A program made the translations under genes and the position numbers. A stretch of DNA of 35,120 nucleotides, taken from IMG/VR virus record IMGVR_UViG_3300035698_010320, positions 1 to 35,120 of that record. One strand, written 5' to 3'. The notes under the pieces were generated by a model, which did not search any database, was not told the origin of the DNA, and worked only from the letters and a program-made list of their open reading frames with translations. Source of the stretch: a virus. Below, one piece after another: positions 5,230 through 33,422 of the stretch (positions within the stretch are counted from its first letter, which is position 1; every line of letters begins with the position of its first letter).

Positions 5230-5438
5230 AAACGAAGACGGAATTGAGATATATCGTGCGATATGCACTGTTGAAGGGCCTCTCGCCCGATGATCTCTGT
5301 GATCACTCAATCAACGCGGTGCGATGTGAACAGTGCGGATTTCGGTGGGTGGCGTTGATCGCACCCGACTGCCACAAGACTAAATTCAGTTGTCCTCGAT
5401 GTCAGGCTGACGCGAGGATTGATATTATTATCGATTAA
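5226..5438 (+). CDS. Small zinc-ribbon protein
   Basis: The 70-residue product has two CxxC knuckles, CEQC (34-37) and CPRC (56-59), separated by 18 residues. This is a classical four-Cys zinc ribbon with beta-like flanks (GFRWVALIAP). The start is the GTG at 5226, which overlaps the terL stop (GTGA), so translation is probably coupled. The function is unknown. Small zinc ribbons of this type are common in phage packaging and structural operons. Confidence 0.7.
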   Translation: MKTKTELRYIVRYALLKGLSPDDLCDHSINAVRCEQCGFRWVALIAPDCHKTKFSCPRCQADARIDIIID

Positions 5439-5448
5439 AGGTGATAAC

Positions 5449-6723: not shown

Positions 6724-6745
6724 AAAACTTTCGGAGAACTTAAAC

Positions 6746-7333: not shown

Positions 7334-7345
7334 GCGAGAGACACT

Positions 7346-9523: not shown

Positions 9524-9846
9524 TGGACAATCTCGAAAAAAAAGAGGAGCTGCAAGAGTGTTGCGGCACCTGCAGATTCCACTGGCCCGGCTGGGCTCCG
9601 CTGGTAATTCCGTTGCCGCCCAAACCGAACGCGATAGCGGGCTCGCCTCAGATGGTGACCCAGGCTACTATTTGCGGCAATGCTGACGGCCCGTTTTTTC
9701 AGCATATTTTAACGGTCCAGAAACACTGCGACGCGTACGAGTGCATCCCAAAAAAAGTGCCACCCGCAGGAGGGGGCGGGTTTTCGGAAAAAAGAGGGAC
9801 ACCCGACGACGACGAAAACACTGAGTCGATGATTATTCAGCCATAA
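9523..9846 (+). CDS. Small Cys-rich protein after portal
   Basis: The 107-residue product starts in a TAATG overlap with the portal stop, so it is probably translationally coupled. It contains CCGTC (13-17), Cys51 and Cys69-x4-Cys74 in a pattern that could bind one zinc. It ends in a Gly-rich linker and an acidic tail. The family is not recognised. Similar short Cys-containing proteins often follow phage portal genes, but their role is unknown. Confidence 0.55.
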   Translation: MDNLEKKEELQECCGTCRFHWPGWAPLVIPLPPKPNAIAGSPQMVTQATICGNADGPFFQHILTVQKHCDAYECIPKKVPPAGGGGFSEKRGTPDDDENTESMIIQP

Positions 9847-9888
9847 CCGGGAAAGCGTATCCGATTCTATCAAATAAGGAGCCAGATC

Positions 9889-10398
9889 ATGGCAAAAAGT
9901 AAGTCCAGCAAGCAAAACAAGCCGAGTAAGCCTACTAGACCAGCAGGAGTAAATCCTGTGGTCGGCGACCCAGGCAATGTCGTCGTCGATGGCGACGCCA
10001 CGTACGAGGCATTGATTCCGTTTGTCGTTAAGCGAACGATCAAGGGCAAGCCCGCCGGTCAACAAAACCGTGTTATGGCCGCCAGCGATCTGTCCGCCCT
10101 GCGAAAGGCGATTGAAGTGTTTACTGTCCCCCCTGCTGTGAAAGCGGTGGCCCCTGAACCCGAGAAACAGGAGAAGCGACCTATGCAAAATGACAAACCA
10201 TCACCCGCAGTGATCCCCGAGCCGGAAGCTCCGTCCGAGGTTGCTGCATCGCTGGTTAATGGCGATGCGAACGTCTCGGAGAATAAAGAGGTTGCTGCCT
10301 CGCCATTCAATGGCGATGCGAACGTCTCGGAGGATATTCCTGTCGATCACGACGACGCGACGACGAACGAAGAATGGAACCAAGACTACAAAAAGTAA
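9889..10398 (+). CDS. Low-complexity putative virion protein with internal tandem repeat
   Basis: The 169-residue product has a strongly basic Lys/Ser/Pro N-terminus (about 1-20). A short ordered segment follows (about 38-82, including ALIPFVVKRTIKGKPAG and ASDLSALRKAIEVFTVP). The tail is Pro/Glu-rich and disordered, and contains two 17-residue repeats centred on NGDANVSE. AAGGAG precedes the ATG. It is the last gene before a strong terminator. No family is recognised; a small virion-associated or assembly protein is plausible. Confidence 0.55.
   Translation: MAKSKSSKQNKPSKPTRPAGVNPVVGDPGNVVVDGDATYEALIPFVVKRTIKGKPAGQQNRVMAASDLSALRKAIEVFTVPPAVKAVAPEPEKQEKRPMQNDKPSPAVIPEPEAPSEVAASLVNGDANVSENKEVAASPFNGDANVSEDIPVDHDDATTNEEWNQDYKK
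10237..10338 (+). repeat. 51-bp tandem duplication within the preceding gene
   Basis: Two 51-bp units (10237-10287 and 10288-10338) both begin GAGGTTGCTGC and share GGCGATGCGAACGTCTCGGA, with a few substitutions between. The period is a multiple of three, so the frame is kept. Confidence 0.85.
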
Positions 10399-10429
10399 TA
10401 GCGATCTAGCGCCAAAAAAAACCGAATAG

Positions 10430-10458
10430 GCACGCTAGGCTTGATCACCTAGTGGTGC
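10430..10458 (+). other. Imperfect hairpin upstream of terminator
   Basis: GCAC-g-CTAGG (10430-10439) pairs with CCTAG-tg-GTGC (10448-10458) across an 8-base loop. No U-tract follows. It may stabilise the transcript end or bind a protein; its function is not known. Confidence 0.45.
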
Positions 10459-10477
10459 GTTGACACTGGCCTTCAAC

Positions 10478-10523
10478 GGGGCGGTGCGGACTCTTTATGA
10501 GTTCTGCACCGCCCCTTTTTTTT
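10478..10523 (+). terminator. Strong rho-independent terminator
   Basis: A perfect 10-bp stem, GGGGCGGTGC (10478-10487) with GCACCGCCCC (10506-10515), has a loop that can itself pair (ACTC/GAGT). It is followed by eight T residues (10516-10523). It ends the terminase-portal transcript ahead of the scaffold and capsid genes. Confidence 0.92.
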
Positions 10524-10685
10524 GGCGTTTTTACTGAATAGTGCCCCAAGCACAACTGCCTCTGACCCGTTCGGACAGGTGCTGAACACGGTAGGCGGCG
10601 GCGAGTGCCAGCGGGCGTTTAACCTATTTTGCTGAGTCGGCTCGGCCATGAGCTGATCCGATGAGAAGCGAAAGGAATTTTAGCC
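10524..10685 (+). promoter_or_regulatory. Intergenic leader of scaffold/capsid genes; promoter expected but not identified
   Basis: This 162-base stretch separates a strong terminator from the scaffold gene, so a promoter for the most highly expressed virion genes is expected here. I find no good TTGACA/TATAAT pair. A small hairpin (GCTC-ggccat-GAGC, around 10640-10653) and an AAAGGA ribosome site before the ATG at 10686 are visible. A promoter for the phage sigma factor would fit but cannot be pointed to. Confidence 0.3.
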
Positions 10686-11615
10686 ATGCCACCTATGATG
10701 CACACAGGGCACGAGATCAATGAGACAGTCGAGCAGGCTGTGGGGTTTGAGAACGACATCTCTGGGCAGGTAGAAGCCACGCCAGCGGATAAGCCGGCGG
10801 ACGAGGCAAAGCCTGCCCCTGAGGCCCCAAAGCCTGAGGCCGCTCCCAAGCCGGAGTGGGACCTCAAGAAGCAACATGCCGACGAAATCCGTGCTGCACA
10901 GCAACGGGAAGCGGCATTGCGGACTCAGAGTGCCCAGCTCGACGAGCGGAACGCTAAGCTGGGTGAGACAGTCACGTCACTTCAGGGTGACTTGACGGAG
11001 ATCAAGACTCAGTTGAGTTCTCTCAAGGACCGCGAGCCCGACGACGAGATGGACCTGGACGAGCTGGACGACTTCGAGGGACTACAGAACGCCCTCAAGA
11101 CGGTGACCGGCAAACTGGCTCAACAGCAAGAACGGCTCACAGCGTCCACGACAAAGATGACGACGGCGAGCGAACGCCTGGCCGCACAGCAAGAAACGAT
11201 AGATAAGCTGCAAGGCCAGTTGGAAGAAGTTTCGACCATCGCCAGGCAAGAAGTGGGTTCCAAGGCAGTGCATGCGGCGTGTGAACCTCTCAACACCCAG
11301 TACGGGGCCCAATTTGAGGACGCCGCGGTCGAAGCTGTGGACACTCGTTTTATTCAGCTTGGAATGAATCGGCTGGAGCCTAACGCTCAGCGAAAATGGA
11401 TTCTCTCGGAGCTGAATAGTACCTACCATCGCATGGCTGCGGATGCTCACGCATCCGCGAACACCCCCGCCAAGGGAACAGTTCCCCCGGCGATTAGTGC
11501 CACCACGGGCGGCGCGGCAGCTCCGGCTAATGTCCCGCTCAAGGAAGGCAGTTTTGAAGACGTAAAAGCGCAACTTGACAGTCAGGCTCGTGCTCCGACA
11601 CGGCGGCTGTCCTAG
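10686..11615 (+). CDS. Capsid scaffolding protein
   Basis: The 309-residue, highly charged, mostly helical protein lies immediately upstream of the major capsid gene. The N-terminus is disordered and Pro/Ala/Glu-rich (about 30-60). A long coiled coil follows (about 60-200, e.g. LTEIKTQLSSLKDRE and LAAQQETIDKLQGQLEEV) with an acidic patch DDEMDLDELDDFE. The C-terminal region is Ala/Pro-rich and ends in a basic helix-like tail, as needed to touch capsid subunits. Length and layout match P22-type scaffolds, which nucleate procapsids and leave before maturation. No protease is visible nearby. Confidence 0.82.
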   Translation: MPPMMHTGHEINETVEQAVGFENDISGQVEATPADKPADEAKPAPEAPKPEAAPKPEWDLKKQHADEIRAAQQREAALRTQSAQLDERNAKLGETVTSLQGDLTEIKTQLSSLKDREPDDEMDLDELDDFEGLQNALKTVTGKLAQQQERLTASTTKMTTASERLAAQQETIDKLQGQLEEVSTIARQEVGSKAVHAACEPLNTQYGAQFEDAAVEAVDTRFIQLGMNRLEPNAQRKWILSELNSTYHRMAADAHASANTPAKGTVPPAISATTGGAAAPANVPLKEGSFEDVKAQLDSQARAPTRRLS

Positions 11616-11638
11616 ATAACAACGAAAGGCGGTCAATC

Positions 11639-12727
11639 ATGGCCACAAATTTAACCGTTGCCACCAGGACGTTTTACGACCTGACGTGGAAAAGTCAGAT
11701 CACCTACGGCATGCCGATCCTGCGTCGTTTGCTGGAACGCAAGCGGATGCGGATGGGCGGTATCTGGGTCTCGAACATCAATGAGACGGCAGACAGCGAA
11801 ACCCTGGTCCAAGAGTACGGTCCCGAAGACGGCCTCGACGCTGGCTCCAAGACCATCATGGGAACCTCTAAGTGGAACATTGCTTTTATGCAGTGCCCCA
11901 TCGAGGAATCCATCGACGAAGAGATTATGAACCGGCCGGAAGGCGACACGCAGCTCGTGAAGATTCGCGACAAAGTGACGGCGAGCACGCAGCGAGGCAT
12001 GAAGATTCGCATGGCCAAGCGTATTTGGGGCTGTGCCTCCGATACCGAGATCGATGACAAGCACACTCTGCTCCAGGGCATCCCTTCCGCCCTGTACAAC
12101 GCCACTTACGGCGGCGTGGCCCGAACCACGACCAGCAACAGCTACTGGATGTCGGCGGACGCAGGAGCTTCCTGTATCAACATTGAAACGGCTGTGTCCA
12201 TCTCTAAGCGTCAGATCTGGGAATGGATCGACTCGGTCAAGTATTATCACGAAGGGCCCGAGTCCCTGTTGATCGTGATGGGTTCGACCCTGTTCCGTAG
12301 CCTGAAGGCTGAGATGGAAGCGTCGAATTCGTATCGCCCGGGCAAAGGCATCGCCAAGCAGGGCTTCCGGAACATGTATCTGGACGATTACGAGATCGCC
12401 GAAGATCCGTTCCTCGATACGCTCACGGAAGATTCTTGCTCCTTGAAAGACGGCGCGGACGGCTGTCTGATCGGCGAACAATCCGCCGCGTATACCGGAG
12501 CTGGTGTGGTCGCTTTGATCCACCTGGACAGTTGGGTGTTCCGTTATGTCAAGGCGTCGAACTCTTCCGGCAAGACGGAAGATCCGATGTTCACGGTCAC
12601 GGATTACTTCGATCAGTCGGTGTTGCCTGCGGGCAAAGAGAAACAACTGGCCCGCGTCAAGGGCAAGTTCAATCTCGAATGCCACCAGCCCAACGCCAAC
12701 CTGCTGCGGGTGAACGTTTCGGCGTAG
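11639..12727 (+). CDS. Major capsid protein
   Basis: The 362-residue product follows the scaffold gene. It contains features expected of an HK97-fold coat protein. There is an N-terminal helical arm, an extended loop region (SETLVQEYGPEDGLD, KWNIAFMQCPIEESIDEEI), a spine-like helix around TQLVKIRDKVTASTQRGMKI, a segment with IWEWIDSVKYYHEGPESLLI, and a C-terminal beta-rich domain (QSAAYTGAGVVALIHLDSWV). The ATG at 11639 lies 23 bases after the scaffold stop with an AAAGG site. The call rests on position, size and neighbours plus this general layout, not on a diagnostic motif. Confidence 0.85.
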   Translation: MATNLTVATRTFYDLTWKSQITYGMPILRRLLERKRMRMGGIWVSNINETADSETLVQEYGPEDGLDAGSKTIMGTSKWNIAFMQCPIEESIDEEIMNRPEGDTQLVKIRDKVTASTQRGMKIRMAKRIWGCASDTEIDDKHTLLQGIPSALYNATYGGVARTTTSNSYWMSADAGASCINIETAVSISKRQIWEWIDSVKYYHEGPESLLIVMGSTLFRSLKAEMEASNSYRPGKGIAKQGFRNMYLDDYEIAEDPFLDTLTEDSCSLKDGADGCLIGEQSAAYTGAGVVALIHLDSWVFRYVKASNSSGKTEDPMFTVTDYFDQSVLPAGKEKQLARVKGKFNLECHQPNANLLRVNVSA

Positions 12728-19111: not shown

Positions 19112-19420
19112 ATGACCACCTTTCAATGCCAACGTTGCGGGACCTGCTGCAAGCAGGTCGGTCACCTAATCCAGTGGATACCGTTGATGCTAGCGGCGAT
19201 CTTCAAGCCTGACGCCTCGGGTGCCTGCCAGCACCTGCGAAAGCTGGAAGATGGGACCTATGAATGCGTAATATATGAGAAACGACCCAAGATTTGCCGA
19301 GTAGAGTGGGTAGTCAAGAACCGAGCCCGAAGTTTCGGTCTGGACGAGCAATCAATGTATGACCTAAGTGCTCACGCCTGTAAACTCCTACGAGAGGAGA
19401 ACGACCATGATACAGTTTAA
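19112..19420 (+). CDS. YkgJ-like CxxCxxCC protein (putative Zn/Fe-binding)
   Basis: The 102-residue product begins with the signature C6-x2-C9-x2-C12-C13 (CQRCGTCC). It continues with Cys39, then CVIYEKRPKICR (Cys52 and Cys62), the full pattern of the YkgJ/UPF0153 family thought to bind zinc or an iron cofactor. The molecular role of that family is not established. Placement in a late virion operon is odd, because the family is usually cellular. The gene follows its neighbour by four bases, and the next gene starts inside its last codons. A virion Zn/Fe protein or host-modifying factor are both possible. Confidence 0.75.
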   Translation: MTTFQCQRCGTCCKQVGHLIQWIPLMLAAIFKPDASGACQHLRKLEDGTYECVIYEKRPKICRVEWVVKNRARSFGLDEQSMYDLSAHACKLLREENDHDTV

Positions 19421-21647
19421 GTTCAGCTTCAATCCTAACGACCCGCTGGGCCTGCACCGACGATATAGTGTCACGCAGTGCCACCTTGACCCGGGGACCG
19501 CAACGGTGATTGGTGCGTCCATTGCCGGGGGGAGCAGCCTCTTGGGCGGTGCGATAGGCGGAAGTGGGGGAGGCTCTATTGAGGCAATGAGCACTCTGAG
19601 CCGTAGCCAGAAAGGCCTGGATACGGTGCTCATCGACTTCCTGCTCGGTATCGAGCGGGACGCCAAGGGTAATATTATCAGCAAGAATCCGCTGCTCACG
19701 AGGGCGTATAACAAAGCCATGCCGCAATACAAAGCCATGCCCATGACGGACAATCAGCAGTCCGGCTTGGCGGCGGCAAAGAATCTCTTGGGCCAGATCC
19801 AGAATCCAGTGCGACCGGACGCTGGGTACATGAAAGACCTCGCCCACGGTATTCTGCCCGGAAAAACAAAGAGTGCAGCTCTCGGTGCGGCACTACTCCC
19901 CGGCGAGAAGGCTGTGGTGGGCGAGGATGGGCCTGAGGTCATCGAGGTGCAGCCGGACGGCTCAGTGAAGGTAATTCCAAACCCCAAGAGCGTAGCGAGC
20001 CCCAAGGCTATTGACGGAGCCCTAGCCAAGAGCGAAGCCGTCCAGCAGGATTTGGGCGTTGCTAAGGGCATGGCTGTCGGCGGCATGACGCTCACTAGTG
20101 ACGCGAAGAAGCAACGGAAGTGGGGCGACTATTACATCCCCGACTCCGCTCCCGGCATGGACACAGGGCTGGCGCAATACAAGGACCAGGACTGGTACGA
20201 GGATGTAGTTGGCGACTACAACACGATCTGGGGCGGGACAGATTCGGGGAAAGACTGGACCCGTAAGCTCGAAAGGAGCAAGCTGTGGACCGGCGATATG
20301 TCTGAATTCCCGATCCAGAAAGAGACCCATATGGGGATGCGAGACTGGCATAACAAGAAATATAAGGGTGCCCTGGAGGACTACTATACCGGCCTCGACG
20401 AATACTGGAACGGCCTGGAGCAGACCACGGAGAATGCTGGCGTTAGTGAGTCCCTGAGCGGCCTACCTTCGGATCAGTATGAAGGGTTCTATGATTGGTG
20501 GAACAGCTCGAGCAATGTGGATGTCGCCAACCCCCTCGGCACGCGAGACGGAGCCCTGACGTTCGAAGACCCGTTCAGTGTGGACGGCGGCAAGCTGAGA
20601 GACGCTATCCCACAGTACTGGGAGGACTCGGGATATGCGCAGAACGAGGCGGGTGAATGGGTAGAGAAAAATAACTGGTCAGACTTGTCCGGTCACGTTA
20701 ACCCCGAGCAATACACAGCATTCAACGAATTTTCGGCAGCCCATCCGGAGTGGGGCGGAGCCCAGATCAATACAGGCCCCAACGGTGCCGAGTTCGGTTC
20801 GTGGCAGAACGGGCAGTGGGTGCCCGCCGATGACACTGTGTATCAAGGAGCGACACAGGCGATCAAGCAGTACCAAGCTGAGATACAGGCGAGTCGTCCT
20901 CATGGCGAAGGGCTGGGAGAGGAGTCGCCCACCGAGACAACGCCCACCGGGGTAGATCCTGCCGCTATAGCCACGGCTCCGGTGTCCGCACTGCCGGTCG
21001 CGAGCACTGGCGATGACGCAACGGACACTACGCTCAGCGCGATTGGTGACGCCCTGGCGGAGAACAGTAAGTCGTTCGACGCTGACGCTGCCAACGACAC
21101 GTTCAATAAGAGCATTTATAACCCGGCCATGTCCCAGTTTGAAAAGATCACAGTGCCGGGTATTCAGGAGACATTCGCAGGAGGCAACCTGTTCGGCTCG
21201 GCTCGCGATAAAGCGGTGCTCTCCGAACGGGGCGATCTCAACGAATCTCTGAATTCGGATCGAGCGACTTATGTGGCCAACAGTGAGCAGGCCCACAAGA
21301 ACCGGGCCCTGTCGGCAGTGTCGTTGACTATGGACCTGGCCAAACTACCGGGTACTATTGCAGGCCAAGCAGCGGACAATGATTACAAGGTTGCCGCCGC
21401 CGCTTCAACGTTCGCCAATATCGAAACCCAAAATGCTCTGGTCAACTCTCAGATCACCAACGATCAATTGGTCGGGATCGTAACTTTGCAGCAGATGTTC
21501 GACACAGAGCAATACCAAGAACAAGCCGAGTGGAACGCGGCAATGCAGAACGCTCTGCAAGCCGACGGCGGCCTCGACTGGACCAGTATTATCCAAATTA
21601 TGATGGGCTATAACTCCGAGACGCAGCTAGCGTTTGCGACCTCGTAG
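19407..21647 (+). CDS. Internal virion (ejection) protein, 746 residues
   Basis: The start is set at the ATG at 19407, which has GAGGAG upstream and overlaps the previous gene by 14 bases; the frame is open a little further upstream. A Gly/Ala-rich hydrophobic segment near the N-terminus (about 31-56, VIGASIAGGSSLLGGAIGG) could insert into a membrane. VVGEDGPEVIEV with the following DGSVKVIPNP is the pattern often seen in tape-measure-type and ejection proteins. The middle is rich in Trp, Tyr and Asp. The C-terminal 250 residues are helical (TFNKSIYNPAMSQFEKITVP, SLTMDLAKLPGTIAGQA). In P22-like phages, three such proteins leave the virion to form the DNA conduit. Confidence 0.65.
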   Translation: MIQFKFSFNPNDPLGLHRRYSVTQCHLDPGTATVIGASIAGGSSLLGGAIGGSGGGSIEAMSTLSRSQKGLDTVLIDFLLGIERDAKGNIISKNPLLTRAYNKAMPQYKAMPMTDNQQSGLAAAKNLLGQIQNPVRPDAGYMKDLAHGILPGKTKSAALGAALLPGEKAVVGEDGPEVIEVQPDGSVKVIPNPKSVASPKAIDGALAKSEAVQQDLGVAKGMAVGGMTLTSDAKKQRKWGDYYIPDSAPGMDTGLAQYKDQDWYEDVVGDYNTIWGGTDSGKDWTRKLERSKLWTGDMSEFPIQKETHMGMRDWHNKKYKGALEDYYTGLDEYWNGLEQTTENAGVSESLSGLPSDQYEGFYDWWNSSSNVDVANPLGTRDGALTFEDPFSVDGGKLRDAIPQYWEDSGYAQNEAGEWVEKNNWSDLSGHVNPEQYTAFNEFSAAHPEWGGAQINTGPNGAEFGSWQNGQWVPADDTVYQGATQAIKQYQAEIQASRPHGEGLGEESPTETTPTGVDPAAIATAPVSALPVASTGDDATDTTLSAIGDALAENSKSFDADAANDTFNKSIYNPAMSQFEKITVPGIQETFAGGNLFGSARDKAVLSERGDLNESLNSDRATYVANSEQAHKNRALSAVSLTMDLAKLPGTIAGQAADNDYKVAAAASTFANIETQNALVNSQITNDQLVGIVTLQQMFDTEQYQEQAEWNAAMQNALQADGGLDWTSIIQIMMGYNSETQLAFATS

Positions 21648-21659
21648 AAAGGTTTTACC

Positions 21660-22835
21660 ATGCCAAATGTACAACAGATTCAATTGCGGCCCAACACGAA
21701 GCGACAGTCGATGGCCGCCGGACTGATGGGTGCCGGTCAAGCTATCGGTCAGGGGTTCAATAAATATGCGGACTATCAGATCAAAGAGGAACGCCGAGCG
21801 GAAGACCAAACCCGGCAGGATACACTGCGAGGTGAAGACCAAACCCGTCAGGATAAGCTGATCGCGGACGCTCAGGCTCGTCAGGATGAGCTGCGAAGCC
21901 AAGACCAGACCCGGGAGGATAAACAGCGAAACGAAGACCAAGCCCAGAAGGATGCACGTCAAGATCGGACTGACGCCGCCAATGCGATAGGTACGCTGGT
22001 GGGGCTACCTGAGGACCAACGGCCTGCCATGGCAAAAGTCATGGAAAGGTTCCTGTCCCCTGAAGCCTGGGCCCTTGTGGATGCGGAGTCTCTGTTTGGA
22101 ATTGACTCCGGCAAGACCAAGACCCAGGAGATGAACGAGGCGGACAAGAGCTACATGAAGGGCCTTGAGAGAGATATCGAAGCCACCAAGGCTGAAGACG
22201 CAGAGCTAAGAGCCCAACTAGAAGGGGAAGATCCAAACGCGATCTTGGCAGGTGATCGAGGCACAGAGAGATGGGGGGGTATGTTTACTACTGGAGAAGA
22301 CTACACCGAAAAACAGTTCAAAATTGCCGACGCCATCGCCCGCAATCAAGAAAAGCTTGTCGGGCTTAAGGAAAAATACGACGCGGCCCGTAAGAAGGCC
22401 GGCGGGACGATGGGCCTCCCTCAGGCACCGGGATCGACACCAGGATCAGCAGCACCAGGAGCTGCGATCGCAGGATCGGGAGCTGCGGTACCAGGATCGG
22501 GAGCTGCGATCGCAGAAGTCATGGGCTCGCCGCTCAACTCCTCCGAGGCAGGGGCACCGAAACTGCCGCTGCAACCGACTCTTCCGCAACCAACGTTTCA
22601 GCCGGGCACAAGCGGGCTTGTGGGTCAGGCACTAACGCAGGGCGGAGCGAGACCCCCACAAGATCTTGCAGCCCAAAAAGCGGCAATCGCGAACGCTACC
22701 GTGGACCGGATGCTCAATGACAAGATGACATATAAGACAACCAAAAAACTGATAGAAAAAGCGATCAAAATGGGAAAATCGAGTGAGGGGATCCTGGAGA
22801 TCCTCAAGGGCTACCCGGACGCATTCCCGCAATAG
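21660..22835 (+). CDS. Internal virion protein with coiled-coil repeats, 391 residues
   Basis: After a Gly-rich N-terminus (about 18-34, MAAGLMGAGQAIGQGFN), the protein has five consecutive 11-residue repeats at about residues 47-101 with core sequence EDQTRQD. These are hendecad repeats, which favour a long right-handed coiled coil. A second helical region precedes a Gly/Ala/Pro repeat tract (about 255-285) and a basic helical C-terminus. The ATG at 21660 follows GAAAGG. It is flanked by other ejection-type proteins and probably fills the same structural role. Confidence 0.65.
   Translation: MPNVQQIQLRPNTKRQSMAAGLMGAGQAIGQGFNKYADYQIKEERRAEDQTRQDTLRGEDQTRQDKLIADAQARQDELRSQDQTREDKQRNEDQAQKDARQDRTDAANAIGTLVGLPEDQRPAMAKVMERFLSPEAWALVDAESLFGIDSGKTKTQEMNEADKSYMKGLERDIEATKAEDAELRAQLEGEDPNAILAGDRGTERWGGMFTTGEDYTEKQFKIADAIARNQEKLVGLKEKYDAARKKAGGTMGLPQAPGSTPGSAAPGAAIAGSGAAVPGSGAAIAEVMGSPLNSSEAGAPKLPLQPTLPQPTFQPGTSGLVGQALTQGGARPPQDLAAQKAAIANATVDRMLNDKMTYKTTKKLIEKAIKMGKSSEGILEILKGYPDAFPQ
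21798..21962 (+). repeat. Five 33-bp coding repeats
   Basis: Five diverged 33-bp units encode 11-residue repeats built on (E/Q)DQ-x-(R/Q)-x-D. The first two share GAAGACCAAACCCG, so expansion was recent for those units. Confidence 0.75.
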
Positions 22836-22844
22836 AGGTGATTT

Positions 22845-25800
22845 GTGAAAACAGTATTGGACCAATTGACGCAGGAGATGCTCGCTCCGCCTAAGCCTAC
22901 TGATCTCGATCCGGCCATAGCAGCCCGCCTTGAGCACGACCTTCTTGCTCCCACGGAGCCGGTCGATCTCGATCCGGCCATAGCGGCACGCCTTGAGCAG
23001 GCCCTCCTTGCCCCCACAGAGCCTGCTGATCTCGATCCGGCCACAGCGGCACGCCTTGAGCATGACCTCTTCGACAAAGAATTCAAGATCCCCACCGAAG
23101 GTCCGTCGTTTGCTCCGGCTCCCGACCCCTACGGCCAGACTCCGTACGATCTCCCCGACGAGGGCGGGCCGGAGGCTCTCCCCGACGAAGATTTCGCTGA
23201 CCTGATCGCCCCGGAAGCCGCCAACCCCAACTACGAACCCATGGTCGCAACCCCCGAAGAAGTCCAGAAATGGACTGCAATGGGCAAGATGGATGTGGGC
23301 GACACATGGGATAAAATGGATATCGGGGAGAAAATCCCCTTTTATGGCAGTGGTCAGGAGCTGCGATTGATGTGGGACCTGTGGTCCGCCACCCGACGAT
23401 TGAAGAAGAACAAGTACGAGAGCTTCGACCAGCAGAACGAAGATCGAGACCTGGTCACCTGGTATCTCAAGAACATGGATGAGCGAGCGGTTCGCGGCGT
23501 GACTATGAAAGGCAAGATCTTTGAAGGGGCATCAGCACTGCCGAAGTTCATGCTCGAGTTCATGGTAACCGGCGGAGCGGCCAGTCTAGGCAAGAAGGCC
23601 GCTATGAAGGCCACGAAGAAAGCTCTCGGCAAGAAGGTGGCCTCTACCGTGGGGCAGCTCGCGACAAAGGCCAGCAAGGCCCTGGGCAGCCCCACAGGTC
23701 GAACTCTCGCTCAACCGTGGCTGACGGCCACAGGCGCCATGGAACGCAATCTACCGCAGCGAGCGCACTTCGACGACGAGACCGGCAAGTTCGTAGTTGA
23801 TAAAGCGGGTGACAGTGGGGTTACCTCCATCGTCAAATCCGCCGGGGACGTGTTCATTGAAAACCTGTCGGAGGAGGCGGGCGAAGCGATCATGAAGATC
23901 ATGGGCAAGGTGGTGCCCAATTTCGTCAAGAAACCATGGAAAGCGGTGGCGAATAAGTTCCCGAAAGGCGGCAAAGTCAAAGACCTGTTCGATTCCATGG
24001 GAGTCCAGGGCTATCCAGCAGAGTCCGCTGAGGAGTACTACGGTGCATTCCTGCGTGCCGTGACCGGCATTGAGGGCGAGGGCGACATCGGTGAGCGGGT
24101 CGGTGCGACCATCCCCGGCGTCGGCAAATCGTGGGAGGATGTGGCTGTCGAGCAGACTGTCCTGGCGGTTCCGGGTGCAGCCCGAGTGGGCGGTATGGCC
24201 GCCGGCAACAAGATTGAGGCCGCTCGCGAAAAGAAGATCGCTAAGCTCACAGACGAGGAGTTATTCACTCTGGCGGCCAAGAAAAGCCCGGGCCCCCTAG
24301 TCAAAAAAGAGATCATGCGGCGAATTACCAGGGAGAGAGAGACAAACGTCCCCAAAGCCGAGGAAGTCACGGATGACGCCCCGGCCCAAAGGGACGCTCA
24401 GGCAGAAGCCGACAGACGGGGCGTCATATACAACGGCCCTCAGGCAGAAGCCGACAGGCTGGGCATCACATACAACGGCCCACAGTTGAAGGCCGACGGG
24501 TCTGTGGCTCACCACCTCTTCACAGATCCCAAAAACGGCACCTCATTCGGAGTCAAGCCGGGCGACAGTGTGGAAGAGAAACGGCAGGCCGCCCAAAAGC
24601 GGATGGATGAGGGTGCCTCTAAGGCCCCAGGATCAACGACCGTTGCAGAAGGTGAGATTGCCCCGGTTAAGGGCCAAGAGGGCAATCCAGCCCAGCAGGC
24701 CCCTACTGAGGGCCAGGCTGACGCCCCTGATCCAACAAAAGTGAGCAAGAAAGAGTGGGTTGCTGGGCAGGAAATCCCTAGACCCGCTTTATCAGAAAAA
24801 GAGATGTCTGGTCTTGCTCAGCTTTCAGACAATATGGGGCTGTCCTTATCTTTGGCAGAAAAAAAAGCAGCCCTTGATTCTAGCTTGATTGATGACTTAA
24901 AGAGAAAAGGTGTGACATCTATTGATGCCTACCACGTAACAAATGTCGATCCAGAAGTTCTTAAAAAAGAAGGAATCCTAGGAAGCAAATTAGATTATAT
25001 CGGAGATTCAACCGGGAGCCTAAGAGAAAAGTCTGTTTATCTGTTTTTAGACCCGGATGATATTAAGTTGGGCCATGATTTTATTGGTAGTGCGGAGGGT
25101 GGCGGAAATAACGTTGTTCACATAAAAATACCAATAGAAAAACTCACACATCTTAACTGGGATTCTAATTTCAATCTCACAGCAGGCACTTACACTTCGG
25201 AGAGATTTTCGGGAGACATCCCAGGGGGGTGGATACAGGGCGTCTATAAGTATAATCCTAAAAAGGGTGGTTTCAAGACCCGCCAGCAACTCGAATCGGA
25301 GTGGGAGGCCGCAGTTGATGCAGAAAATGCAACAACTGACGCCCAACCCGCCCCGGCCCAAGATCCATCGGCTACGGTCGCGGCCCAGCCGGAGGCGGTG
25401 GCAGACGAAACCCTCGAACCAGGCACCGGCGAGCTCGTCGGCAAATATCAGGAGACCGGCGATGAGACCATGTACGTGCTTATCGATGAATCCTATACGC
25501 TCCAGTCACTCATCGACGACGGGACGCTCACTAAGGAGCAGGCGTACCAAAAGCTTCGCGATGCGGGCCTCGAGCAAGAAGACCCGGCTGATGTTGAAGT
25601 GTTCGGATCGAACGCCGAGATGTACATTGAAGGCGTAAAAAGGGATGTGGTCAAGCTGTTCAAAGGGGCAGACGTTTCGACCCTACTCGAAGAGAAGGCA
25701 GAATTGTGGTATAAGAAGAAAGTGGCCAGCAGTCCCACATTCGCCAATCAGGTCAAAAAGTGGAGACAGAAATATGAAAAGCACACCGGAATTCAAGACG

Positions 25801-28730
25801 GACAGTCAGATCTCGAGTGGTTCTCTAGCCGGGCCACTGAGTATGCGTTGCACAAGCAGATTAACCGGGCAATCGATACACCTCTGCGTCAGCTCCTCGA
25901 CCGATTCCGAGTCTATGCGAGAGAGCTGCTCCAGAAAAGCAACGCCCTGCGGAAGTACCTGCGGAACACCAAAAACAACAAGCGATTTGAAGCAGCCCTA
26001 GGCGAGTCAACCAGCCTGAACAAGCTCGGTCTTGAAGCAAAAAATAAGCCGAGATCTACCGAAGAGCAGTCTAGTGCCTCGACGATACGTACGCCGGGAG
26101 CATCTGAGAGCCGTCCCATTTCGATCTCGGCCAGCCCTCAGCATATCGTCTTGGGCGGCACAGATCAATCAACCACTTTCTCGCTCCGCCCTCACGGCAA
26201 GACGATCAGCAACAGAAACAAAGAGTTCCAAAGGTTTTATGGCGATCTAAGCCCCAACGCAAAAACTTCATTTGACTTCTATAAAAGCCTCCAGGATATC
26301 GAGAAGGAGGCCGCCGAGAACCCAGTGCGAGCCCGAAACTCCAAGAAGATTTGGAAGAAATACAAGAACGGAGACATCCTCAATCGGTTTCTGACTACGG
26401 CCCAGCTCAATGAGTTCGTCAAGAAAAACCCCCACGCCCAGGCCGCCACTCAGCAGATATACGAACTCCTCGATCCGAAGGTCCGCGAGGAGATGGGTCT
26501 GCGTGAGGACGGGCTGTTCGACCCCGGCATTCTGGACGATATCGGATTCAAGGTCAAACGCTCGATTATGCAACGGGTGCTCGATGCCCGAAACAATGTC
26601 ATGACTGTGACACTCGACAGCCCACTCTACACCCTACCCGGCACAGATATCACCGTGGACCTCGGGCAAGAAGGAACAATCCCCTTCGACGAAGACTATC
26701 GCCAGGCCCTCCTCAAGGAGATGCGACGAATGTACAAAGAGGGGACGCTCGACACCGCCTCGCCCGGGGCAATGAGTGTGGACACCTGGGGGACGATGGG
26801 GTTCTTATCGGCTAACCAGAAGACTATCGCCAGCAGCGATACCACAACCCTATGTCCACAGATCATGTATAATGGGGGTTGTTTTTACTGTTATCGACGA
26901 GCAGCCCTTGCGTCTGATATTAACACTAAACTCGGTGGCGAGAAGGTCTGGTACGGCGGCGAGCTATTGCGAATGCGACCGGACGACGTGAACGACCTCA
27001 ACGCTATCGGAGGCTTGCGACATCAATCGTTTGGCGACTGGTACGGCACCGACGCTCAGACGCTCAGGATGTTTGTGGACATGCTCTACGACGCTGAGCT
27101 GCAACAGCTACAAAGCAAAGTGATCACGAAGGACGGCGGCATGGTGGAGTTTGTTGCATCCATCATGGACCAGAAAATCACTCACGAAGTCAAAGGAAAG
27201 CAAGTGTCGCTCGGCTCGTATGTATTCTTCAACCTCTCAACGGATTACCTGATGGAAGAGGCTGGCCCTGCCGAACAAGCGGACGAAGGCGGCGTGGCCC
27301 CGTTGAATGCCGAACGGCCATTCAAACGGTTTGAGGAACACCTGGAACCCGGCCAGATGGGACCGGGCAGAAGTGTAGCATACTGGAAGCGAGCTTTATC
27401 AGTAGAAGAGGCCGACGAGTTAGCCAAGAAATATCACTGGGTCAATGTCAGAACTGTGGCTACCGACGCCGAAGAATTCATTGAGGGCCTGCTCGACCCA
27501 AGAGTGCATGTGGTCACTGGATACCACGGCAAAATCCGCGAGCATCAGAGGGGGGTCACCCTGCACGATGGCACGCGGCTCAAGTTTGATCTCGAGTCTA
27601 TTGGCGACGACGACATGCCGACTTTTAATTCCGACGGCTCGATCAAGAGCCACGGCAAGAATAGGCAGCACTTCAAGCTGGCATATCTCATCCACAAATT
27701 CGGCCTTCAGGACGAGTACTACCGCAAGGCCTGTTGTATTACGGGCCGGTGCAAAAGCTGCACGACCAAATGTGGAGCAGCTCAGCGGCACAAATACACC
27801 AGCGGGCGGTCGTTTCCGCCTAGCGAGCTGCTCAGTCAGGACAACTCGACAATCCGCAAGGTAGCTGAAGCGTACGACATCGACACTGACTGGAAAAACA
27901 AGAGGGTGAAAAACAAGGACATCGTCGCCAAGCTCGATGGGATGTTGCGAGTTACGCCGAGTTTCCAGATGCGAGTCAAGGCCAGCGGCAGCAAACAGAC
28001 CCGACCAGCTCCCCCGCCTAAGGTCCGCGTTGATCGCACTTCAGCCAGACAGGAGCATACCGATGCTGATCGAGAACCGATGGGCCTCGATGTTCTGCCA
28101 TCCCCGAGCCGGGTCGAGTGGCAGCAGAATCTCGACGAGGCCAAAGAACAGCGAGTACCAGAAAAAGCTCTCCGCATCGCAGGAGAAATTCAGGCCGCTC
28201 CCCGAGCCCTCAGTGCAACCGAGACAGCGGGACTGGTTATCCGTGCGGTGGAGCTGAAGGCGGAGCACCGAGGACTGGTCAACGAGATGCGGGATCTCGA
28301 CGACAAGGCGGACCTGCGAGCTAAAGCCGAGGAGATTCGGAGAGTCCAGGAAGAGTTCGACCTGATCACTGACGGACTGAGGAAATCTGGCACCGAGAAA
28401 GGCCGGGCACTGGCGGCACAGAAACTCACGATCAATCAAGATTTCGATCTGATCACGGTCACAAATAGAGCCAAGGCGGCTCGCGGCAAGGCCCTATCGG
28501 TCGGAATCGATAAACGATTCGCCATGCTCACAGAGGCACTCGAAGACGCGGTGGCTCGCGTGGGGACTCTCAAAAAGGACATTGCCAGTCGCGACGCAGT
28601 GCGAGCAATTGAAACGGCGGGGGCCCGAAAGTATTCGCGAATGAGTACCCGTGAGAAGGATGCCGACCTCGAATCCACAGCATCAAGGCTCAGAGAGCTG
28701 ATGTCGGCTCAATGTTACGACGTAAATTAG
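22845..28730 (+). CDS. Giant multidomain polyvalent-type virion protein (1961 residues)
   Basis: It starts at a GTG at 22845 with GAGGTGA upstream. Regions in order: three 21-residue repeats (13-75); a basic/amphipathic segment with FMLEFMVTGGAASLGKKAA (about 233-251); a helical region with AESAEEYYGAFLRAVTG; a 14-residue duplicated linker (about 519-546) and LFTDPKNGTSFGVKPG, a pattern of polyvalent-protein linker domains; an AT-rich insert (about 640-812) with YHVTNVD and FSGDIPGGWIQGVY, resembling an ADP-ribosyltransferase fold; GADVSTLLEEKAELWYKK (941-958), a zincin-like helix whose HExxH seems replaced by EEKAE, with E991 in a plausible third-ligand position; TTFSLRP (about 1109-1115), a common linker; a Cys-cluster domain with C1337-x8-C1346-x2-C1349, GGLRHQSFGDW (1389-1399) and a distal cluster C1630, C1631, C1636, C1639, C1643; and a C-terminal coiled coil. 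Such proteins are thought to enter the host with phage DNA. Domain identities are pattern calls. Confidence 0.7.
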   Translation: MKTVLDQLTQEMLAPPKPTDLDPAIAARLEHDLLAPTEPVDLDPAIAARLEQALLAPTEPADLDPATAARLEHDLFDKEFKIPTEGPSFAPAPDPYGQTPYDLPDEGGPEALPDEDFADLIAPEAANPNYEPMVATPEEVQKWTAMGKMDVGDTWDKMDIGEKIPFYGSGQELRLMWDLWSATRRLKKNKYESFDQQNEDRDLVTWYLKNMDERAVRGVTMKGKIFEGASALPKFMLEFMVTGGAASLGKKAAMKATKKALGKKVASTVGQLATKASKALGSPTGRTLAQPWLTATGAMERNLPQRAHFDDETGKFVVDKAGDSGVTSIVKSAGDVFIENLSEEAGEAIMKIMGKVVPNFVKKPWKAVANKFPKGGKVKDLFDSMGVQGYPAESAEEYYGAFLRAVTGIEGEGDIGERVGATIPGVGKSWEDVAVEQTVLAVPGAARVGGMAAGNKIEAAREKKIAKLTDEELFTLAAKKSPGPLVKKEIMRRITRERETNVPKAEEVTDDAPAQRDAQAEADRRGVIYNGPQAEADRLGITYNGPQLKADGSVAHHLFTDPKNGTSFGVKPGDSVEEKRQAAQKRMDEGASKAPGSTTVAEGEIAPVKGQEGNPAQQAPTEGQADAPDPTKVSKKEWVAGQEIPRPALSEKEMSGLAQLSDNMGLSLSLAEKKAALDSSLIDDLKRKGVTSIDAYHVTNVDPEVLKKEGILGSKLDYIGDSTGSLREKSVYLFLDPDDIKLGHDFIGSAEGGGNNVVHIKIPIEKLTHLNWDSNFNLTAGTYTSERFSGDIPGGWIQGVYKYNPKKGGFKTRQQLESEWEAAVDAENATTDAQPAPAQDPSATVAAQPEAVADETLEPGTGELVGKYQETGDETMYVLIDESYTLQSLIDDGTLTKEQAYQKLRDAGLEQEDPADVEVFGSNAEMYIEGVKRDVVKLFKGADVSTLLEEKAELWYKKKVASSPTFANQVKKWRQKYEKHTGIQDGQSDLEWFSSRATEYALHKQINRAIDTPLRQLLDRFRVYARELLQKSNALRKYLRNTKNNKRFEAALGESTSLNKLGLEAKNKPRSTEEQSSASTIRTPGASESRPISISASPQHIVLGGTDQSTTFSLRPHGKTISNRNKEFQRFYGDLSPNAKTSFDFYKSLQDIEKEAAENPVRARNSKKIWKKYKNGDILNRFLTTAQLNEFVKKNPHAQAATQQIYELLDPKVREEMGLREDGLFDPGILDDIGFKVKRSIMQRVLDARNNVMTVTLDSPLYTLPGTDITVDLGQEGTIPFDEDYRQALLKEMRRMYKEGTLDTASPGAMSVDTWGTMGFLSANQKTIASSDTTTLCPQIMYNGGCFYCYRRAALASDINTKLGGEKVWYGGELLRMRPDDVNDLNAIGGLRHQSFGDWYGTDAQTLRMFVDMLYDAELQQLQSKVITKDGGMVEFVASIMDQKITHEVKGKQVSLGSYVFFNLSTDYLMEEAGPAEQADEGGVAPLNAERPFKRFEEHLEPGQMGPGRSVAYWKRALSVEEADELAKKYHWVNVRTVATDAEEFIEGLLDPRVHVVTGYHGKIREHQRGVTLHDGTRLKFDLESIGDDDMPTFNSDGSIKSHGKNRQHFKLAYLIHKFGLQDEYYRKACCITGRCKSCTTKCGAAQRHKYTSGRSFPPSELLSQDNSTIRKVAEAYDIDTDWKNKRVKNKDIVAKLDGMLRVTPSFQMRVKASGSKQTRPAPPPKVRVDRTSARQEHTDADREPMGLDVLPSPSRVEWQQNLDEAKEQRVPEKALRIAGEIQAAPRALSATETAGLVIRAVELKAEHRGLVNEMRDLDDKADLRAKAEEIRRVQEEFDLITDGLRKSGTEKGRALAAQKLTINQDFDLITVTNRAKAARGKALSVGIDKRFAMLTEALEDAVARVGTLKKDIASRDAVRAIETAGARKYSRMSTREKDADLESTASRLRELMSAQCYDVN
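22881..23069 (+). repeat. Three 63-bp tandem repeats
   Basis: Three units of 63 bp encode LAPxxPxDLDPAxAARLE-like 21-residue repeats at residues 13-33, 34-54 and 55-75. GATCTCGATCCGGCCA is shared by all three copies. The near identity suggests recent expansion. The repeat could be a packaging or docking signal at the N-terminus, as it sits before all recognisable domains. Confidence 0.88.
24399..24482 (+). repeat. 42-bp tandem duplication
   Basis: Two 42-bp units (24399-24440 and 24441-24482) share CAGGCAGAAGCCGACAG and a following ATACAACGGCCC-like end. They encode QAEADRxGxxYNGP twice. Confidence 0.85.
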
Positions 28731-28739
28731 GGACACCCA

Positions 28740-30914
28740 ATGGCTAAAAAAATAGACTGCTCTGAGTTGTCACTGACGCTAACCAAAATGGCGATGAATC
28801 TCGGCTCGCGAAAACACATTAAAGACCTCGACAGCGTGGTTACTGAGATGCAGACCTATGTCCCCCAGGTGACCCGCGAAGTGCTCGTTGACGCCATCAA
28901 TGAGACTGTGGACACCTCGAGCCGGAAGACCAGCGAAGAGGCACTGAAGTGGCGGCAGCTGCGTGGTGAGGCGGTGAGCGAGAAGAAGCTCCGTTCCGGG
29001 CTCGATAAAAAACTCAGCCATGGACTGGATAAAGTGTCGTTAGCTCTGGAAGCAGAAGCCGCCCGCACAAAGCCGTCACACAAGCCGTCGCCCGTCCTTA
29101 AAGCATTACAGGCCCTGAAGCACGACGTTGACCAGCAAGAAAAAACACAGAGTCGCATCGACAGCGTCAAGCGGGCGATCTCTCGCAAAGAGGCCCTGGA
29201 AGCCAAGCAACACAAGGCCCGGCCAGCTTCAGCGAAACTGAAAGAGATGCGAGCGGAACTTGGGGAACTCACGCGGCAGGAGAAAGCCTCTGCTCGCATT
29301 AGGGAGATCAAAAAAGCGACGGCCCCCAAATCCAAGCGAAAGGCCACGCCTCCATCCGAGACGGTGGCCGCCCTGCGAGCGGAGGCCAACGACCTCGCAC
29401 AACGCAAAAAAGTGCAAGCCCGCATCAAGGAGATCAAAAAAGCGATCGCAACCGGCACCACTATCGACACGGATCGCAAAACCAAACCGGCATCTAAGGA
29501 GCTGGCCGCCCTCCGTGAGGAGCGGGACGAACTGACGAAAAAGCTAGGTCGCACCGATCCGGCCCTGATCAAAAAAATCGGACGCAGTATCGACAAACTC
29601 GAGAAACAGCTCGAGATGGGGACGTTCAAGGCCCCAGCAGCACTCGAATCTAAATCTGACAAGGTCACAAACAAAGAATTAACGCGAGTGCAGTATCGTG
29701 AACACAAACTCAAGACCGAGATCAATCGACAAATTAAAGTGTTGCAGCCCAAAAGCATGATGGATCGATTTGCTGATCCCTTCAATGCCGGGCGTGCGCT
29801 CATGACCTCGCTAGATTTCTCGGGGGTAGGCCGCCAAGGTATCATCATCGGCTTGGCTCATCCGATCAGATCCGCCAAATCAATCATGCCAATGCTCAAG
29901 GCCACGGTGAGCAAGAAGAAGGCATATGAAATAAATAGGGACATCCTAGAGAGCCACAACGCTCCGCTGTACTGGAGGTACGGACTGTACCTGGCCGCCG
30001 TCGATGGCGGCACGCTGAGCCAGCGAGAGGAGGCGTACATGACTAGTTGGGCGGAGAGAATCCCCGGCGTGGCTGCATCCGAGCGAGCCTACGTCACATA
30101 CCTCAATAAAATCCGAGCGGACACTTTCGACGCGATGATTGCCACCCTGTCGCGAAACAAAAACGGGGAGGTGACGCAGGCTGAAGGAGAGGCCATCGCC
30201 AACTTCGTCAATGTTGCCACAGGCAGAGGTAACCTGGGAGCACTCGAGAAGGCCGCGGTGCCGCTCAACACGATATTTTTCGCCCCGAAATATGTCGCCA
30301 GCCGGTTTCAGTTCGCCATGGGTCAGCCATTGATGAAAGGTCCCAACAGTACCCGCAAGATGATCGCCGCGGAATACGCACGATTCCTGATCGGTGCTGG
30401 CGTCGTCGCCGGACTGGGCCTAGCAGCAGGCGGTGATGTGGAGGACGATCTACGATCAGCCGATTTCGGCAAAATCAGATTCGGCGACACCCGCATCGAT
30501 CTCATGGGTGGACTGTCGCAGACGATAGTGCTCGTGGCTCGCGTCGTGAGCGGTAAAACGAAATCCACAGGCTCCGGCAAGATCTACAAGATTAGAGGCA
30601 ACACACGATTCGGCGGGCGTGACACCGCCGACGTACTAGCGTCGTTTGGGCGAAGTAAATTGTCGCCGATGTTTTCTACGTTTATCGACACTGCCACCGG
30701 CACTGATGTCATCGGTCAGCCGGTGACGCTGTGGTCGGAAATCACAGGTTATGCACCGCTGGCCCTGCGTGATGTCTATGACGCCATCATCGCTCAAGGG
30801 CTCCCGGCGGGCACCGCTTTGGGCCTCACCGCCATTATGGGTGGGGGCCTGCAAACGTACGAGTCGCGGGGAAAAAAGGCATCGCCCGCTCGCAGGACTC
30901 GCAAAACCCGCTGA
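28740..30914 (+). CDS. Ejection/polyvalent C-terminal-type protein (724 residues)
   Basis: This gene starts nine bases after the giant gene. The N-terminal 300 residues are strongly helical and basic, with at least three copies of a motif RIxxIKKA (139-147, 186-194, 228-236) separated by Lys/Pro-rich spacers. From about 335 the protein changes to a hydrophobic, helical domain: SLDFSGVGRQGIIIGLAHP, SWAERIPGVAASERAYVTYL, FFAPKYVASRFQ, a possible membrane segment FLIGAGVVAGLGLAAGG (about 547-563), then DFGKIRFGDTRIDLMGGLSQ. This domain typically ends large phage polyvalent proteins, so the gene probably represents a split form of that architecture. The C-terminus is Arg/Lys-rich. A conduit or membrane-insertion role during DNA entry is plausible. 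Confidence 0.65.
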   Translation: MAKKIDCSELSLTLTKMAMNLGSRKHIKDLDSVVTEMQTYVPQVTREVLVDAINETVDTSSRKTSEEALKWRQLRGEAVSEKKLRSGLDKKLSHGLDKVSLALEAEAARTKPSHKPSPVLKALQALKHDVDQQEKTQSRIDSVKRAISRKEALEAKQHKARPASAKLKEMRAELGELTRQEKASARIREIKKATAPKSKRKATPPSETVAALRAEANDLAQRKKVQARIKEIKKAIATGTTIDTDRKTKPASKELAALREERDELTKKLGRTDPALIKKIGRSIDKLEKQLEMGTFKAPAALESKSDKVTNKELTRVQYREHKLKTEINRQIKVLQPKSMMDRFADPFNAGRALMTSLDFSGVGRQGIIIGLAHPIRSAKSIMPMLKATVSKKKAYEINRDILESHNAPLYWRYGLYLAAVDGGTLSQREEAYMTSWAERIPGVAASERAYVTYLNKIRADTFDAMIATLSRNKNGEVTQAEGEAIANFVNVATGRGNLGALEKAAVPLNTIFFAPKYVASRFQFAMGQPLMKGPNSTRKMIAAEYARFLIGAGVVAGLGLAAGGDVEDDLRSADFGKIRFGDTRIDLMGGLSQTIVLVARVVSGKTKSTGSGKIYKIRGNTRFGGRDTADVLASFGRSKLSPMFSTFIDTATGTDVIGQPVTLWSEITGYAPLALRDVYDAIIAQGLPAGTALGLTAIMGGGLQTYESRGKKASPARRTRKTR

Positions 30915-31730: not shown

Positions 31731-33422
31731 ATGATAAAAATCAGTATACAGGACGGCAGGATTGTCGCCAAAACCCCGTTCGAGCTCAAAGAAACGTGCA
31801 AATCGATCCCTGGAGCGAAGTGGGACAAAATCAGGCGGGTCTGGACCTACGCGGCCAGCCCGTACGCCGCACAGGAAGTGGTCCAGGCGTTTGGTCCCTA
31901 CGAGGTGGAGGATGGCCAGGGCCAGGCATCAGTTCGCGATCTAGCCAGACAGATAGTGCGAATCAAACAGATCCTCGAGCATCCCGAGACGCTCGATCCG
32001 ATCCCTAAGACGATCATGTCGCCGCGTGAGTGCCAGCTCCAGGGCTACCACCTCATAAAGGAACTCCCAGGCGTAATGCTCGCTTTCGAAATGGGGGTGG
32101 GCAAAACAAAAGTCGTGGTCGATGCGGTCTGCAACAACCTTCAGGAGTACCGCCGCGTACTCGTCGTCTGCCCCAAATCCGTAGTGGCGGTGTGGCCTAA
32201 GGAATTCAAAAAACACGCACAGACCCCCCCTAAAGTTGTCGCCCTCGACTCGGGCTCCCTAAAGAAACGCATCAAAACACTCGACCATGCCAGGATCTAT
32301 TCCACCGGCTCTATAGTTGCCGTGATCAATTATGAGGCGGTATGGCAGGGTGAGATGGGTAAGTATATCAAGGCCATCGACTGGGACATGGTCGTTTGCG
32401 ACGAGTCACACAAAATTAAATCACACGACCGCTCGGCTCGGGCCAGCACATTCGTGTCTCGGCTGTCAGCAAAAAAACGGGTCGCTTTGACGGGAACCCC
32501 CATGCCGCACAGCCCGCTCGATGTGTGGGCTCAGTACCGGTTCCTGGACCCGAGCGTGTACGGCGATCGGTTCACGGCATTCCGAGCCCGCTATGCCGTG
32601 ATGGGCGGCTACCAGAACCATCAGGTATTGGGATTCCAAAGCATGGACGACCTCAATAGGAGGTTCTACCGGATCGCCATAAGGGTGACCAAAGAGGAGG
32701 TTTTGGATTTGCCCGACCAAGTGGACACTGAGCGGATGGTCACGCTGGCCCCCAAAGCGGCAAAGGCGTATCGCGACATGCAGAACGAGTTTATAGCCGA
32801 GGTGGACGGCGGCGTCATCACTGCGTCCAACGCCCTGAGTAAAATGCTGCGACTGCAACAGATCACCAGCGGATTCGCCACGAACGAAGAGGGAGAGCAG
32901 GTCCCTGTCGGTGACAGTAAGTTTGTCGCATTTTGCGAAACTCTAGACGACATCGGTATGGACCAGCCGGTGGTGACGTTCTGTCGTTTCCGTTCGGACC
33001 TCGACCGGATTGTGGAGGCTGCTGAAGCCGCCGGTCGCAAGGGTTTCGAGCTGTCTGGACGCAAGAACGAACTCGCCGAATGGCAAGACGATACTACCGG
33101 CAGCGTATTGGCAGTACAGATCCAAGCTGGCGGAGCGGGCATCGATCTGACCCGCTCCTGCTACTGCGTGTACTATAGTCTGGGCTTGAGCCTGGGAGAT
33201 TACATGCAGAGTCGGTCAAGACTGCACCGGCCTGGCCAGAACTACAATGTGACCTACGTCCACCTGCTGGCCTCCGGTACTATCGATGAGCGGATCTACC
33301 GAGCACTGCAAACTCGGCATGAGGTAGTAACCGCAGTGTTGGAAATGTTCCACGCGGCCTCAGATCAAAAGATGCTCGAGTCGCACGCCCTAAATGATGC
33401 ATTGGACATTTTTAACGCTTAA
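31731..33422 (+). CDS. SNF2-family DNA helicase/translocase
   Basis: The 563-residue protein carries the full superfamily 2 motif set. Walker A is MGVGKT (121-126), preceded by QxxGYHLIKELPGVMLAFE (Q-motif region). Motif II is VVCDESH (DESH, 224-227), motif III LTGTP (253-257), motif V QIQAGGAGIDLT (about 463-474) and motif VI QSRSRLHRPGQ (493-503). The N-terminal 55 residues (IKISIQDGRIVAKTPFEL, WDKIRRVWTY) look like the HARP-type substrate domain of annealing helicases. Such phage proteins act in replication, recombination or fork remodelling. The ATG at 31731 has AAGGAA upstream. It is the most confidently assigned non-virion gene here. Confidence 0.93.
   Translation: MIKISIQDGRIVAKTPFELKETCKSIPGAKWDKIRRVWTYAASPYAAQEVVQAFGPYEVEDGQGQASVRDLARQIVRIKQILEHPETLDPIPKTIMSPRECQLQGYHLIKELPGVMLAFEMGVGKTKVVVDAVCNNLQEYRRVLVVCPKSVVAVWPKEFKKHAQTPPKVVALDSGSLKKRIKTLDHARIYSTGSIVAVINYEAVWQGEMGKYIKAIDWDMVVCDESHKIKSHDRSARASTFVSRLSAKKRVALTGTPMPHSPLDVWAQYRFLDPSVYGDRFTAFRARYAVMGGYQNHQVLGFQSMDDLNRRFYRIAIRVTKEEVLDLPDQVDTERMVTLAPKAAKAYRDMQNEFIAEVDGGVITASNALSKMLRLQQITSGFATNEEGEQVPVGDSKFVAFCETLDDIGMDQPVVTFCRFRSDLDRIVEAAEAAGRKGFELSGRKNELAEWQDDTTGSVLAVQIQAGGAGIDLTRSCYCVYYSLGLSLGDYMQSRSRLHRPGQNYNVTYVHLLASGTIDERIYRALQTRHEVVTAVLEMFHAASDQKMLESHALNDALDIFNA

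Follow-up and report, generated by a model that had tools for sequence, protein, structure and literature searches.

What does a very long ORF among the late virion genes of a phage encode, and where would its product act? The window, by which we mean the whole stretch of 35,120 bases of an IMG/VR viral record that was analysed, carries on its + strand a single unbroken frame of 1961 aa with a GTG start (22845–28730). A preliminary description made from the letters of the DNA had read this frame as a polyvalent-type virion protein lying between ejection proteins and possibly delivering several effector activities. We consider it moderately probable that the giant ORF is an internal virion protein of the ejection, polyvalent type, and that the module best conserved in it is an enzyme domain resembling radical SAM proteins.

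The giant ORF and its virion-gene setting

The ribosome-binding site AGAGGTGA lies directly 5′ of the GTG start, the ORF is placed 9 bases after the preceding stop codon and 9 bases before the next ATG, and its GC and GC3 (0.55 and 0.63) are similar to those of neighbouring genes; hence the single 1961-residue frame described previously was borne out. The short N-terminal repeat of that description was likewise recovered by TRF as a 63-bp (21-aa) unit in 2.7 copies with 87% matches (22902–23069, + strand), and TRF also found a second tandem repeat in a linker (24397–24485, +; 42 bp, 14 aa, 2.1 copies). Hydropathy and hydrophobic moment marked a K/A-rich amphipathic helical stretch at residues about 215–300 (23487–23744, +), with a moment of 0.55 at residues 263–280, and this stretch may contact membrane or DNA. 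The amphipathic segment proposed earlier therefore holds in a weak form: the helices are present, but other stretches score equal or higher in moment. Whole-protein searches of the giant ORF against profile collections and PDB sequences gave no match, and neither did RNA polymerase profiles of Pfam and PHROG; a match to SseC (E 0.96) was judged to be a chance match of coiled or helical sequence. Promoter-like and terminator-like sites in the window were no more frequent than in shuffles.

The gene order on the + strand of the window is sigma factor, terminase genes, beta-helix tail protein, portal, coiled-coil protein and major head protein, followed on the same strand by virion proteins, a series of large ORFs without a match and an SNF2-type helicase. 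The sigma factor is of the sigma-70 family (regions 2 and 4; 842–1504, +) and lies just 5′ of the terminase genes, and the helicase (563 aa; 31731–33422, +), 3′ of the virion cluster, matches only the middle of phrog_62 (1881 positions). Profile matches identified terminase, portal, capsid and a virion structural protein 5′ of the giant ORF on the same strand, and the ORF is thus encoded among late virion genes. Phage polyvalent proteins are typically encoded near late genes, consistent with virion inclusion, according to the main text of the survey of Iyer et al. (2017, PMC5512222).

The immediate neighbours (19368–21647, 21660–22835 and 28740–30914) had no profile match above noise. The earlier placement of the ORF between ejection proteins is partly supported: genes further upstream are virion genes by profile, but the adjoining genes are without profile match. 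By its position, the 391-aa upstream neighbour (21660–22835, +) is a possible ejection protein. The 724-aa protein downstream (28740–30914, +) is coiled and has a hydrophobic C-terminal part, and its position and composition suggest that it may be a separate C-terminal part of the polyvalent unit; its PAD_porph match (E 0.0086, below cut-off) was judged to arise by chance from coiled or helical sequence. The virion-gene cluster upstream also contains a 102-aa CxxCxxCC protein (19112–19420, +) that matches PF03692 over the cut-off (E 7.3e-6), and this family is annotated as a putative zinc- or iron-chelating domain. One may speculate that this small protein is a metal partner of the cysteine-rich (Cys) domain of the giant ORF.

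A module shared with a second giant protein

When 50,697 phage records were searched by tblastn, one match was obtained, in which residues 1321–1435 aligned with a 231-aa protein of Moorella phage MTATph1. A search of IMG/VR with the two-row alignment gave one contig, IMGVR_UViG_3300001598_000162, and the matching frame was another giant ORF, of 2762 aa. Scans of IMG/VR with the whole protein, the module, the Moorella protein, the segment read as ADP-ribosyltransferase (ART) and the downstream gene found only this contig, and no relatives were found in the genome contigs and plasmids scanned. The two giants align at residues 1054–1645 with 38% identity over 602 residues (E 3e-101). The shared module covers ~540 residues, and its core aligned alone has 49% identity (E 1.6e-93). 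The N-terminal part of the module, residues 1111–1315 (26175–26789, +), which is predicted to be mostly helical by a low-confidence model, retains 25% identity when aligned alone with the 2762-aa protein (E 4.6e-12).

By tblastn at E ≤ 0.01, the proteins of the window match the second contig in this module and nowhere else; the order of genes in that contig is terminase, phrog_156 portal, head protein, phrog_3287/internal virion protein, a 364-aa gene in the place of the 391-aa neighbour, and the giant. Terminase, portal phrog_156, capsid, phrog_3287 and the giant ORF are common to both phages. Thus, two phages that are otherwise without detectable sequence similarity have one module in common, at a similar gene place, and the gene order in both suits an ejected internal virion protein. 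Both the position of the ORF and the second giant at the same place support the preliminary view of a polyvalent-type giant among virion genes, but only one of its domains gained support.

The 2762-aa giant (frame 3626–11914 of the extracted locus) has a HENAH (HExxH) motif at residue 799. Its Cys module is followed immediately by an ART-PolyVal-like stub (E 5.7e-5), and its C-terminal half matches phrog_22978 (E 8e-224); no significant similarity was found between this half and the 724-aa protein of the window. In the Moorella phage the relative (5977–6672 of the extracted locus) is a free-standing protein, encoded near DNA polymerase and Holliday-junction resolvase genes, not virion genes. 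Elsewhere MTATph1 (OR602862.1) encodes a separate 274-aa Radical_SAM protein (105261–106085; E 2.1e-9), and a thymidylate synthase gene is nearby; this might hint at DNA base modification.

Cysteine motifs and radical SAM likeness

Eight of the nine cysteines of the 1961-aa protein fall at residues 1337–1349 and 1630–1643, and the Cys-cluster domain noticed previously was in this way both confirmed and extended. The first group forms CX8CX2C (C1337, C1346, C1349) followed by Y (26853–26891, +), a predicted [4Fe-4S]/SAM site that is conserved in both relatives. The second group (C1630, C1631, C1636, C1639, C1643; 27732–27773, +) is a predicted auxiliary Fe-S or Zn site, and its CX5CX2CX3C pattern from C1630 is kept in the 2762-aa giant and in the 231-aa protein of MTATph1. 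Across three of three relatives the motifs CX8CX2C-Y, YxGE, GGLRxxSFGD, ITK, NxSxD and the C-terminal CX5CX2CX3C are kept. The three-cysteine motif of the radical SAM superfamily is therefore present, with a non-canonical spacing (CX8CX2C, not CX3CX2C).

Profile, structure-search and motif evidence all bear on residues 1316–1652 (26790–27800, +). Against NCBIfam, the 231-aa protein of MTATph1 matched viperin (E 1.1e-3) and the StsB radical SAM family (E 9.8e-4), and Pfam Radical_SAM matched the segment of the 2762-aa giant at E 0.04 with ranges that place the Cys motif in register; none of these radical SAM signals passes curated cut-offs. The window protein's own segment matched no family, and PF04055 found nothing in the window or in the second contig. 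Sequence searches of the Cys module and the window protein against solved structures gave no significant match. An AF2 model of the core was built from an alignment of two sequences, to which the MTATph1 protein did not belong, and it shows alternating strands and helices at pLDDT 51 and pTM 0.50. When this low-confidence model was compared by Foldseek with 350,542 PDB chains, the first three matches were viperin (E 0.05). VIA-align returned generic TIM barrels (Z about 6), with no radical SAM enzyme among the matches listed, an absence that does not weigh against the assignment. In a viral structure library, one match was significant (E 2.9e-6): a piece, 1313 residues long, of another phage protein. 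Lower in that list, at E above 0.05, stood several proteins annotated as radical SAM or radical-activating. An earlier two-sequence AF2 model of residues 1111–1667 had a pLDDT of 38.6, at which the Foldseek result is without meaning. We read residues 1316–1652 as probably radical-SAM-like from the agreement of these weak and partly independent signals, none of which is decisive alone. The predicted TIM-like barrel, the N-terminal Cys triad and the weak HMM and Foldseek matches resemble viperin and other radical SAM enzymes, whereas the CX8CX2C spacing in place of CX3CX2C and the extra C-terminal Cys cluster set the window protein apart.

A similar order of motifs is found in DUF5131 (phage Gp37/Gp68), GP88 and DUF7227, namely C...CxxCY, a D-containing strand motif, T[KR] and an S-x-[DE]-type strand, although the members fetched are small proteins and not modules of giant ones. 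Members of DUF5131 and GP88 were gathered with consensus queries, and their membership was confirmed by Pfam. The core profile aligned with that of DUF5131 (PF07505) in a profile–profile comparison at E 3e-4, a score reached by none of 650 column shuffles; the comparison with GP88 (PF17338) was not significant and not above column shuffles. Plain HMM searches of the Cys-module family against DUF5131 or GP88 were no better than shuffles. Moreover, the Pfam models PF07505, PF17338 and PF23872 had no match in the window, the second contig or the Moorella phage, and membership of the Cys module in DUF5131, GP88 or DUF7227 was rejected on that ground. The Cys-module motif spacing and a C-terminal Cys cluster are present in six of eight GP88 members. 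For each relative, the full motif pattern occurred in 0 of 100,000 shuffles, a count that is not unbiased because both families had been inspected before the pattern was drawn up. Radical_SAM is weakly matched by two DUF5131 members (E 0.005–0.013), one GP88 member also matches DUF7227, and the GP88 and DUF5131 profiles match each other in hhalign (E 4e-5), which suggests kinship. Our literature search found no mention of DUF5131 or PF17338. Taken at the level of sequence, the Cys module reads as a sister family to these, distantly akin to DUF5131, and not as a member.

Competing readings and possible action at the start of infection

The preliminary description had assigned an ADP-ribosyltransferase-like region to residues about 690–835 (YHVTN...VYLF...; 24912–25349, +) and a decayed zincin to residues about 925–1060 (STLLEEKAEL...; 25617–26024, +). 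A reading in which these two accompany the Cys domain and the ART is the principal effector seems to us quite unlikely. The resemblance is by eye, YHVTN and VYLF looking like ART strands 1 and 2, and the reading draws further on the ART being the commonest predicted protein-modifying domain of polyvalent proteins (PMC5512222) and on the weak ART-PolyVal stub and HENAH motif of the 2762-aa giant. Yet the window protein matches no ART or metallopeptidase model: both regions were without a profile match in Pfam, PHROG and NCBIfam, ART-PolyVal (PF18760) and MPTase-PolyVal (PF18818) searched directly in the window gave nothing, HExxH is absent from the whole 1961-aa protein, and the IMG/VR scan found no relatives of the ART-like stretch. 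Among catalogued polyvalent domains these two were tried directly and the others through Pfam, a procedure that remote versions would escape. Neither assignment was confirmed, and of the several effector activities first proposed only the Cys module has support, the ART and zincin parts having gained none in any test. The low-complexity linkers, the repeats and the zincin-like stretch without HExxH could also be taken to mean that the giant ORF is an inactive accretion of decayed modules; we regard this as very improbable, given that every motif cysteine of the Cys module, and 49% identity in its core, is retained in a protein from an otherwise unrelated phage.

Two other readings keep the Cys domain and change its role, and we judge both to be unlikely, to a similar degree. 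The domain might be a zinc-stabilised structural or nucleic-acid-binding one with a TIM-like fold and no radical chemistry, in a giant that is a scaffold or a component of an ejection channel; the non-canonical CX8CX2C spacing, the generic TIM barrels of VIA-align and the curated radical SAM cut-offs that were never reached fit this reading. However, radical SAM families were matched by three routes, and the conserved motifs other than cysteines (CY, YxGE, SFGD, ITK, NxSxD) resemble an active site more than a zinc knuckle. Alternatively, the domain could be an enzyme that acts in the producing cell at assembly, for example by modifying DNA or inner proteins before packaging, and not after injection. 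A place among late genes suits assembly no less than injection, and the Moorella relative is free-standing near DNA-metabolism genes; in both giants, however, the module is fused into a protein at the place of an ejection protein in podovirus-like genomes, and injection is the fate assumed for polyvalent proteins that have a virion context (PMC5512222).

For the reading that we prefer, a radical-SAM-like module in an ejected internal virion protein, packaging and injection are suggested by gene order. The giant protein would be packaged along with the genome and threaded into the recipient, either together with the DNA or before it; there it would refold, and host machinery would then build its cluster. 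In a predicted TIM-like barrel, C1337, C1346 and C1349 would hold a [4Fe-4S] cluster, and the C-terminal cysteines 1630–1643 would form an auxiliary Fe-S or zinc site. The Cys domain may bind a cluster and act as a catalyst, and its SAM-derived radical chemistry would be directed, early in infection, at a nucleic acid, a nucleotide or a protein. It counts against this scheme that an Fe-S cluster would need rebuilding after tail passage. We tentatively propose, as an idea that is plausible but still the less probable outcome, that what the phage injects includes a radical SAM enzyme. This would be a mobile iron-sulfur module of ~540 residues, borne by the giant ejected proteins of podovirus-like phages that are not related to each other; it would perform SAM radical chemistry in the recipient at the start of infection and might make or remove a modification of a nucleotide, RNA or DNA.

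Among the cargoes known or predicted for giant phage proteins that are injected are ARTs, peptidases, helicases, RNases and RNA polymerases. The N4-like virion RNA polymerase is an ejected protein of about 3500 aa with HExxH in the polymerase C-terminal domain, and the paper on it mentions radical SAM only in connection with the HExxH motif (PMC12633501). By analogy, the window protein may be a giant ejected protein with an embedded enzyme, whereas it has no RNA polymerase match or HExxH, and its cargo is different. Its length, its richness in linkers, its place in a late virion-gene cluster, the module common to otherwise unrelated elements and the relative with an ART-PolyVal-type stub and HExxH all resemble polyvalent proteins (PMC5512222); unlike these, it has no profile-recognised polyvalent domain, and its main module is radical-SAM-like. 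Neither ‘radical’ nor ‘Fe-S’ nor ‘iron-sulfur’ occurs in the main text of the survey of polyvalent proteins (PMC5512222), and the papers found with both ‘radical SAM’ and ‘polyvalent protein’ concern other systems. Since that main text does not contain ‘radical’, the radical-SAM-like module seems, with moderate confidence, to represent a class of effector that is new, within a type of protein that is known. The earlier suggestion of an undescribed domain combination is accordingly kept for the Cys domain, a kind not in the survey's main text, but not for the ART and zincin parts.

If this is true, the range of activities that phages deliver in the first minutes of infection would come to include, with radical SAM cargo, an oxygen-sensitive iron-sulfur chemistry, and the rebuilding of the cluster after passage through the tail would become a testable question. 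Moreover, unexplained small phage proteins (DUF5131, GP88 and DUF7227) would be tied to a likely catalytic class.
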